Shown piece by piece: positions 2,197-4,482 of a DNA stretch of 33,979 nucleotides; position 1 is the stretch's first letter, and the number at the start of each line of letters is the position of its first letter. The notes below the pieces were generated by a model. That model searched no databases and was not told where the DNA came from. It worked only from the letters and a program-made list of their open reading frames with translations. This stretch comes from an uncultured Archangium sp. (lineage in GTDB: Bacteria > Myxococcota > Myxococcia > Myxococcales > Myxococcaceae). The stretch lies in the NCBI GenBank assembly GCA_903905455.1, contig CAIVGN010000119.1, positions 1 through 33,979 on the forward strand. The letters are read 5' to 3'. Made by a program: the position numbers and the translations under genes.

Positions 2197-2266
2197 GCCC
2201 TGTCCGTAAGCGAATTTCCCCCGGGTGCCAATGGTTCAGACAATGCACTATGTCCTCGTGTCCCCC

Positions 2267-2848
2267 ATGACCCGAACCCTCGTTGCCCTCTGCCTGTGGT
2301 CGCTGCCGGTGCTGGCCGCCGAGGTGTACGTCAACGGCGTCAACGTCGAGGGGCTGACCAACCACACCTTCGAGAAGGTCACCGTGCGCATCGACGAGAA
2401 GGGCAACGTGCAGATCGACGCGCCCGGCTACTCGGTGAAGAAGGTCACCATCGGCGGGGACAAGGCGAAGGAGCCCGAGGGCGTCATCACCCAGAAGTAC
2501 TTCCTCGTCACCGAGCAGAGCCCCCCGGGCGCCACGGAGTACGAGATCGACGTCTTCTTGAACGGCAAGTTCCTGCGCACGGTCAAGAGCGGCGACGAGC
2601 AGCTGGTCAACGACATCAGCAAGCAGCTCAAGCCCGGCAAGAACCAGGTGATCGTCCAGGCCAAGAAGCGCTACGCCGACCCCATGGTGCCCAGGAGCTC
2701 GTCTCGCAACCACGTCTTCCGGGTGATCATCGGCGAAGGCACCACCACCCAGGACCAGGTGACCATCGAGAAGCAGCTGGTCACCTTCACCCGCACCGCC
2801 GCCGACACCAACGACACCACGCAGGAATTCAGCTTCACCACGCGCTGA
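2267..2848 (+). CDS. secreted protein of unknown function
   Basis: I chose the ATG at 2267, giving MTRTLVALCLWSLPVLAAEV, a clean Sec signal peptide with cleavage after LAA. An in-frame ATG at 2225 would put fourteen residues in front of the signal and is less likely. The mature protein is about 175 residues, rich in beta-strand-like segments (VYVNGVNVEGLTNHTFEKV, VRIDEKGNVQIDAPGYSVKKV). It resembles small periplasmic PEGA-like or surface-domain proteins, but I cannot assign a family. It ends nine bases before the next gene and is likely first in a five-gene run ending with the PfkB kinase. It shares a short (about 70 bp) divergent intergenic region with DUF2760. Confidence 0.75.
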   Translation: MTRTLVALCLWSLPVLAAEVYVNGVNVEGLTNHTFEKVTVRIDEKGNVQIDAPGYSVKKVTIGGDKAKEPEGVITQKYFLVTEQSPPGATEYEIDVFLNGKFLRTVKSGDEQLVNDISKQLKPGKNQVIVQAKKRYADPMVPRSSSRNHVFRVIIGEGTTTQDQVTIEKQLVTFTRTAADTNDTTQEFSFTTR

Positions 2849-2857
2849 TGGGAACGC

Positions 2858-4069
2858 ATGTACTCCATTGATGAGCGGCTCCGCGGCTTGCCCGCGGTGA
2901 AGGACCAGGTCGTGCAGCTGTACCAGTCGCTGAACGCGCCGCACCTGGCGATCCCCGGGCGCAAGGCGGGGCCGGCGACGGCCTTCGTGCTCGGCCTGCG
3001 CGGGCCCTCGGGCTTCGCGGTCTTCGTGTACCTCTACCTGCAGCAGAGCGGCGAGAGCGCGGTCTACGTGCCCTCCAACGGCACCGTGCCCGCGGAGCAG
3101 TTCCAGGGCGAAGAGCTCGAGGCCCTGGGCTTCGTGGAGTCCATGGGCTTCATGATGGACAACTTGAACTTCCGCGGCCGCCCGCCCGACGAGCAGGACG
3201 CCATCATCCGCACCATGCCGGTCTTCATGCGCGACCCGCCGCCCCCCGCGCCCACGGGCTCTCCGCTCAACGGCAACAGCGCGGGCAAGCCCAGCACCGG
3301 CGCGCACGCGGGCGTGGTGCAGCTGGGCAAGCTCTTCTCGGCCTTCTGCCTCTCGTTGCTGGTCGCCGGCTGTGCCCACGTCAGCGAGAAGGACCTCGAG
3401 CAGTCGCGGCTGCACTACGAGCTGGCCGTCGACAACCTGGTCAAGTCGCCGCAGGTGGCGATGCAGGAGACCGACGAGTCGCTCACCTACGATCCCAACA
3501 ACGCCGACGCCTGGCACGTGAAGGCGCTGGTGCTGCACCACAGCTTCGGGCGGCTGGAGGAGGCCCACGTCGCGTACATGAAGGCGCTCGAGCTCAAGAA
3601 GCCCTTCTCCGAGGCGCGCACCAACCTCGGCAACCTGTACATGGACCAGAAGCGCTACGACGACGCCATCGCCTCGTACCAGCTGGCGCTCAACGACGTG
3701 CTCTACCCCACGCCCTTCATCCCGCAGGGGAACATGGGCTGGGCGTACTTCAAGAAGGGCGACACCCGGCAGGCCATCGACTTCCTCTCGTCGTCGGTGC
3801 GCGTCAACCCGCGCTACTGCCTGGGCTACCTCCAGTTGGGCCAGGTGTACGAGGCCCTGAGCAACGTGGGCGAATCGTGCAAGTACTTCTCGCGCTTCCG
3901 TGAGCACTGCCCCGACCGCCCCGACGCCTGGCAGCGCGACGGCATCTGCCTCGCCAACGTGGGCAACAAGGAAGGCGCCGGCAAGGCCTTCGACACCTGC
4001 GTGCTCAAGGCCGGCACCGACGACCAGCGCGACCTGTGCAAGCAGCTCAAGGAGCAGCTGCTGAAATGA
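2858..4069 (+). CDS. tgl: N-terminal soluble domain fused to Tgl-like TPR pilotin lipoprotein
   Basis: The C-terminal half (from about residue 155) is a TPR lipoprotein of the Tgl/PilF type. In Myxococcus, Tgl is the outer-membrane pilotin needed for PilQ secretin assembly and type IV pilus (S-) motility. A lipoprotein signal, LFSAFCLSLLVAGC, with lipobox Cys172, is followed by several TPR units (about 205-385). The odd point is that this signal is internal: residues 1-150 form a separate soluble domain (MYSIDERLRGLPAVKDQVVQ onward) ending in a Pro-rich stretch, in the same open frame and with no stop between. Either this is a true fusion, or Tgl is made from an internal start such as the tandem GTGs at 3314/3317, which lack a good ribosome site. 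The stop overlaps the next gene as ATGA. Tgl assignment is by TPR pattern and lipobox; the symbol applies only to the C-terminal part. Confidence 0.75.
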   Translation: MYSIDERLRGLPAVKDQVVQLYQSLNAPHLAIPGRKAGPATAFVLGLRGPSGFAVFVYLYLQQSGESAVYVPSNGTVPAEQFQGEELEALGFVESMGFMMDNLNFRGRPPDEQDAIIRTMPVFMRDPPPPAPTGSPLNGNSAGKPSTGAHAGVVQLGKLFSAFCLSLLVAGCAHVSEKDLEQSRLHYELAVDNLVKSPQVAMQETDESLTYDPNNADAWHVKALVLHHSFGRLEEAHVAYMKALELKKPFSEARTNLGNLYMDQKRYDDAIASYQLALNDVLYPTPFIPQGNMGWAYFKKGDTRQAIDFLSSSVRVNPRYCLGYLQLGQVYEALSNVGESCKYFSRFREHCPDRPDAWQRDGICLANVGNKEGAGKAFDTCVLKAGTDDQRDLCKQLKEQLLK

Positions 4070-4482
4070 GTGCGCCGCGGTCGCCCGACTACCTCGACTT
4101 CGGGCGATACCTGCAGCTGCAACGCGAGCTGCGGGGCCTGTCCGTGGACGACGTGGCAAGGCAGACGAAGATCTCCCCCACCCTGGTGAGCGCGCTCGAG
4201 TCCGGGCAGGCCGAGCGGTTCCCCGAGCGGGTGTTCGTCCTCAACTACGTGCGCAGCTACGCGCAGGCCGTGGGGCTGCAGCCCGACGAGGTGGTCTCCC
4301 GCTTTCACGAGATCCCCGAGGCCCCCCGGGCCGAACACTTCGACCCCGCGGAGCTCGAGGTGGTGCGCCGTGAGCGCGCCGGCACCGTGCTCTGGGCGAC
4401 CATCGCCGGGGTGGTGATCACCGTGGCCGCGGTGGGCTTCAACGCCATGTACGACGTCGCGCTCCGCTACACCCACCGGTAA
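4066..4482 (+). CDS. membrane-anchored helix-turn-helix protein (RodZ/HTH_25-like)
   Basis: A 138-residue protein starting MSAPRSPDYLDFGRYLQLQR. Residues about 10-75 form a Cro/C1-type HTH of the RodZ N-terminal kind (LRGLSVDDVARQTKISPTLV, then VFVLNYVRSYAQAVGL). One transmembrane helix follows near residues 106-128 (VLWATIAGVVITVAAVGF) and a short tail of about ten residues. RodZ binds MreB through this domain. The periplasmic part here is almost absent, so this is a minimal RodZ-like or membrane HTH protein rather than full RodZ. The ATG at 4066 overlaps the stop of the TPR gene, implying coupling. Location directly behind the tgl-like gene may point to a cell-pole or envelope role (inference). 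Confidence 0.75.
   Translation: MSAPRSPDYLDFGRYLQLQRELRGLSVDDVARQTKISPTLVSALESGQAERFPERVFVLNYVRSYAQAVGLQPDEVVSRFHEIPEAPRAEHFDPAELEVVRRERAGTVLWATIAGVVITVAAVGFNAMYDVALRYTHR

Follow-up and report, generated by a model that had tools for sequence, protein, structure and literature searches.

The closest described counterpart of the gene reported here is Tgl of Myxococcus xanthus (NF033762), a pilotin of the PilF/PilW type for type IVa pili (T4aP). We take Tgl to be MXAN_3001 in M. xanthus. According to PMC10653833, M. xanthus Tgl stimulates the multimerization of PilQ in the outer membrane. In PMC3858216, MXAN_3003–3005 are homologues of AglRQS. The window analyzed here is a stretch of 33,979 nucleotides from an uncultured Archangium sp. 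It contains a gene at 2858–4069 on the forward strand, whose product resembles Tgl in being a TPR lipoprotein with a lipobox, in scoring above the family cut-off and in being encoded in a genome with PilQ. Unlike in M. xanthus Tgl, a second domain precedes the signal peptide, which comes only after 155 residues. The split relatives differ from this fused gene: they encode Tgl by itself, in most cases with an ATG a short way upstream of the lipobox.

Two other systems show partial likeness. FbcH of Bradyrhizobium is a cytochrome b/c1 precursor in which signal peptidase I separates two respiratory subunits. It may be the nearest working parallel for two proteins that are encoded by one gene and divided at an internal signal sequence. 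In contrast to FbcH, the signal in the window is of type II (lipoprotein), and part of it is the tail of the front protein itself. MinD and FtsA have C-terminal amphipathic membrane tails. The separate front proteins of relatives similarly end with a short conserved basic-hydrophobic tail behind a loose linker; their tail differs from those of MinD and FtsA in its mostly fixed terminal Phe, in that its membrane binding is putative, and in being part of a signal peptide in the fusions. No report of this fusion was found in the open-access texts searched, and a search of the literature on internal lipoprotein signals and polyproteins yielded nothing relevant.

Organization of the Fused Gene

The open reading frame at 2858–4069 starts with ATG, is free of stop codons throughout and encodes 403 amino acids; relatives have the same fusion. 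The front domain (aa 1–125, 2858–3232) carries the signature FxESMGF. It is followed by a variable linker rich in Pro, Ala and Gly (aa 126–155, 3233–3322), the sequence LGKLFSAF (aa 156–163, 3323–3346), the hydrophobic core of the signal peptide (aa 164–171, 3347–3370) and the mature Tgl, a TPR pilotin (3371–4066). The lipobox LVAGC (3359–3373; LLVAGC with the preceding residue) ends with Cys172, encoded by TGT at 3371–3373. All of these features are on the forward strand. The preliminary description had reported a lipobox with Cys172 in the middle of the protein in one continuous frame, and the open frame confirms this. Cys172 is invariant in all 21 aligned fused proteins, which indicates that the lipobox in mid-protein is not a chance occurrence. 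The full-length structural model consists of two confident parts, a loose linker (pLDDT mostly below 50) and one helix at residues 155–172, which covers the tail and the core.

The upstream neighbor (2225–2848, forward strand) encodes a predicted exported protein with no family match, relatives of which are seen in 60 of the 80 loci described below; its stop is separated from the start of the fused gene by 9 bases. The downstream neighbor (4066–4482, forward strand) encodes an HTH_25 protein, and the sequence ATGA contains both its ATG and the overlapping stop of the fused gene. recO comes next. The fused gene of locus L104 (2701–3900) lies directly 3' of apparent ftsQ, ftsA and ftsZ, named from their translated starts, a neighborhood quite unlike that of the window.

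The Tgl Half and the Front Domain

Residues 162–401 match NF033762 (social_mot_Tgl) with 272.7 bits, or 275.0 bits when the Tgl half alone is used, against a cut-off of 225 bits. Several Pfam TPR models match this half, and its helical repeats are modeled at pLDDT ~97. The lipoprotein signal is not N-terminal as it is in Tgl: the lipobox Cys is residue 172 and there is no conserved start nearer to it, so the gene is classified as a fused variant of Tgl. It is the only close Tgl of the genome, the next best match showing 45 bits and 26% identity. The same genome encodes PilQ (464.3 bits; cut-off of TIGR02515, 284.35) and has two LspA genes.

Neither Pfam nor NCBIfam has a model that matches residues 1–152. 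AlphaFold2 models residues 1–125 at pLDDT ~97, with strands followed by a helix that leads into the invariant FxESMGF, and a pN/pS of 0.31 reveals strong purifying selection. Two of the comparisons were made with sets of 70 and 60 chosen sequences. A profile of the front domain finds no match among the sequences of solved structures, and Foldseek gives no match at E < 0.001. VIA-align gives weak matches (best Z 5.7; DcrB, 4.7). The matches of Foldseek and VIA-align, to the WGR domain of PARP1/2, class IV cyclase, DcrB and PUR-alpha, are weak and no better than common arrangements yield; no fold name is given to the domain. A Pfam search with 40 members of the family gave two single weak matches, judged to be due to chance. 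The preliminary description had called this part an unrelated soluble domain. It is a soluble domain, but it is not unrelated, as it is the product of a conserved gene neighbor of tgl.

Fused and Split Relatives

Among the 60 related genomes searched, some contain the one-frame arrangement and others two adjoining genes. Fifty-six loci were read closely: 16 are fused, 35 are split and five (L022, L036, L040, L055 and L056) are without one of the halves. A second, overlapping set contains 80 loci with the front domain on named contigs; L002 and L057, for example, are the same place, and the two sets of counts are not additive. A comparison of orthologous loci, proposed in the preliminary description, shows both states here, with separate genes in 59 loci (tgl directly downstream) and the same one-frame fusion in 20, while one locus is cut by the contig end. 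A Tgl-like gene or half is thus beside the front domain in 79 of the 80 loci. The front-domain family ranges from Myxococcota to Desulfuromonadales, plus one Bdellovibrionales MAG. All 12 genomes of the f7 family found with the front domain have it fused; for two of them, G083 and G084, the positions on the contigs identify the loci as L130 and L121.

The front domain is present in 158 of the 195 genomes of the phylum. In a tally that ignores kinship, a strong Tgl match (E < 1e-40) is seen in 150 of these 158 genomes and in 8 of the 37 genomes without the front domain. These last 8 genomes indicate that the pairing is usual, not obligatory. PilQ is found in 191 of the 195 genomes, and its co-occurrence is therefore uninformative. 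G120, a complete genome in one contig, is without Tgl and the front domain, which suggests a joint loss; PilQ is present. Its genus otherwise mostly has both genes. G024, G156 and G157 (2.1–2.7 Mb), which belong to the family of the window, retain Tgl and show no match to the front domain.

In L012, L014, L018 and L026, which are split, tgl is in the frame of the front gene and sometimes starts right after its stop. These loci may be intermediates that only a stop codon separates from the fused state.

Repeated Origin of the Fusion

A tree was built from the front domain and mature Tgl, with the linker and tail removed. It contains 92 rows: 78 of the 80 loci on named contigs, 13 chosen further loci and the window; two loci without a long enough Tgl were dropped. 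The tree requires four changes between the split and fused states, and all four are forced by well-supported branches. A single fused clade is rejected (p-AU 1.2e-6), and so is a clade uniting the two largest fused groups (p-AU 2.4e-4), in a tree made by a quick method with some long branches and with fused groups that had been named from the same data before the AU tests. Parsimony and the AU tests reject a single ancient fusion with later splits. Judging from these sequence comparisons, the two neighboring genes have become fused on at least four occasions, each time with the same joint.

The preliminary description had offered three options: a true fusion, an internal start at a GTG codon, or a sequencing error. 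The first is upheld. The last is contradicted by the presence of the same fusion in many independent assemblies from four lineages, and the internal GTG start is not conserved across the fusions. Nothing was found that favors an assembly error or gene decay. Given the number of assemblies and lineages and the pN/pS of the front domain, an error of assembly or sequencing, or a decayed gene, can practically be dismissed.

The Tail Motif at the Joint

The conserved tail of the free front protein is [LIV][AG]R[LF]L[AS]SF-stop, located behind a variable linker. A more general motif consists of a basic residue, a hydrophobic residue, two or three further residues and a hydrophobic residue at the very end. 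It closes the chain in 58 of the 59 separate front proteins and fits 1.9% of random 12-mers; this count covers the split loci apart from L131, whose linker is N-masked, and leaves out the fused ones. Arg is at position −6 in 55 of the 59 and Phe is the last residue in 49. The tails are amphipathic, with a mean hydrophobic moment of 0.53 and a median shuffle p of 0.03 (59 tails). Two split loci have odd tails. L122 has Leu where the basic residue is expected. The front gene of L131 (4001–4564) has a linker with repeated VPETR / YPKQE and some masked bases, and no recognizable tail.

The motif is retained in every fused protein examined, and the lipobox Cys follows 7–12 residues later. The joint in the window is LGKLFSAF-CLSLLVAG-C. 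In the other fused groups, it is VARLFAAF-SFLLLIS-C, IVKLFSSF-CWLVIFTLLG-C and LGRLLSTF-GWVVAMLAGGAG-C; all four groups are joined at the same place. The basic start of Tgl itself is absent from the fusions, and the front tail stands in its place. Because the tail directly adjoins the hydrophobic core and the lipobox, LGKLFSAF, formerly the C-terminal tail of the front protein, also serves as the beginning of the signal peptide. The window shows the features of a type II (LspA) signal: basic K158, a core at 159–171 and a small residue before the Cys (VAG-C172). Asn is unusual before a lipobox Cys; it is seen there in three fused loci (L005, L168 and L170), a point against the course proposed below.

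Cys164 of the window is encoded by TGC (3347–3349), at the position of the stop codon in the split relatives, which is TGA in 43 of the 59. A change from TGA to TGC can be supposed. Comparison of these codons suggests that loss of the stop codon of the front gene was likely the first step toward fusion.

Translation of the Fused Gene

Comparison supports the translation of the fused gene as one chain. The 16 fused loci of the clade of the window show nine linker lengths, all in frame (in the corresponding frame count of split loci, L131, L136 and L117 are left out). The distance from the tail to the Cys in these loci is eight residues in 15 and nine in one. Across 15 sequences, pN/pS is 0.31 for the front domain, 0.81 for the linker, 0.58 for the tail, 0.69 for the core and 0.67 for Tgl. 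As the linker evolves fast, the case for its translation rests on the keeping of the frame and not on conserved residues; all of its length changes preserve the frame.

The alternative is that Tgl starts at GTG 3314 or GTG 3317, alone or beside the long chain, in which case its signal peptide would be short and of the normal kind (MVQLGKLFSAFCLSLLVAGC). The preliminary description had listed these two codons (3314–3319, forward strand; Val153-Val154), and both are present in frame. Such a pair, 18–19 codons before the Cys, is shared by the window with L057, L058, L060, L062, L063, L064 and L068, and the resulting peptide would resemble a normal lipoprotein signal. GTG accounts for 40 of 52 valine codons near the joint and 255 of 486 elsewhere, as internal starts would favor. 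A Shine-Dalgarno (SD)-like stretch accompanies seven candidate starts in 4 of 21 fused loci; the window is not among them, and no such stretch precedes its GTGs. There is no GTG at 18–19 codons in L061, L065, L067, L069 and L081, while L104 and L110 offer only TTG as a candidate start. Of 58 split loci examined, 56 showed a lipobox, and in 50 of these tgl has an ATG 13–45 codons ahead of the Cys, whereas an ATG at 13–40 codons is seen in 3 of 21 fused loci (the window and the 20 on named contigs; further fused loci are not included). L065 has no ATG, GTG or TTG at all in this range. The scarcity of ATG and the lack of any start codon in L065 indicate that the fusions do not in general make Tgl by internal initiation. 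Furthermore, an independent start of Tgl would require neither a common frame nor read-through, yet all nine linker lengths are in frame. As a general explanation, the internal GTG start is rejected for its lack of conservation, and for the gene in the window it is unlikely. The surplus of GTG near the joint and the GTG pair common to several near relatives leave an additional internal start as a candidate for the subclade of the window.

Proposed Processing and Topology

The gene is a true fusion of the genes for a small cytoplasmic protein and the pilotin Tgl, which are neighbors in most relatives. It is probably read as one chain, which would be inserted with its N-terminus inside and processed by Lgt and LspA at Cys172, the front part keeping its membrane tail. 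Cleavage, topology and location are inferences here. In the proposed course, the front gene would have lost its stop, and the DNA from the tail up to the hydrophobic core of Tgl would have been removed, so that the tail (KLFSAF) may supply the basic residue and the initial half of this signal peptide. The chain would insert into the inner membrane, and its front domain would face the cytoplasm. Lgt would lipidate Cys172 and LspA would cut before it. Tgl would then move to the outer membrane and help PilQ to assemble, as in M. xanthus, while the front domain would stay on the cytoplasmic face through the leftover signal helix. Separate front proteins may likewise be held at the membrane by their tail. 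One gene would thus give both ancestral products at a fixed 1:1 ratio.

The preliminary description had objected that a cytoplasmic N-terminal domain conflicts with export. With an N-in signal anchor, whatever precedes the anchor is retained in the cytoplasm, while the sites of action of Lgt and LspA are across the membrane, at the other end of the helix. The objection is not compelling, since the front domain belongs to the part that is not exported. One chain with one hydrophobic helix would also suit a bitopic protein that stays uncut in the inner membrane, its front domain cytoplasmic and its TPR part periplasmic, so that the Tgl of this clade would act from the inner membrane. Against this, Cys172 is invariant in the 21 fused proteins while the rest of the core varies, and LspA genes are present. 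Moreover, the outer membrane is where Tgl acts on PilQ in M. xanthus (PMC10653833), by which a release of Tgl from the front domain is expected. An uncut protein is thus very improbable.

Biological Significance

A broader reading of the one-chain fusion can be put forward tentatively, at somewhat below an even chance. The gene could encode a polyprotein divided by LspA, in which the membrane tail is reused and one cut would yield a tail-anchored cytoplasmic pilus factor and an outer-membrane pilotin. That the same joint was reached at least four times could then mark the front protein as an unrecognized partner in T4aP assembly. By its position adjoining tgl from Myxococcota to Desulfuromonadales and in one Bdellovibrionales MAG, the front protein is likely such a partner. 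Its conserved tail is an unusually clear and testable short motif. The repeated fusion may serve as a natural experiment on the length of the cytoplasmic domain that can precede a lipoprotein signal peptide, and on the fate of a signal peptide to which a folded domain is attached.
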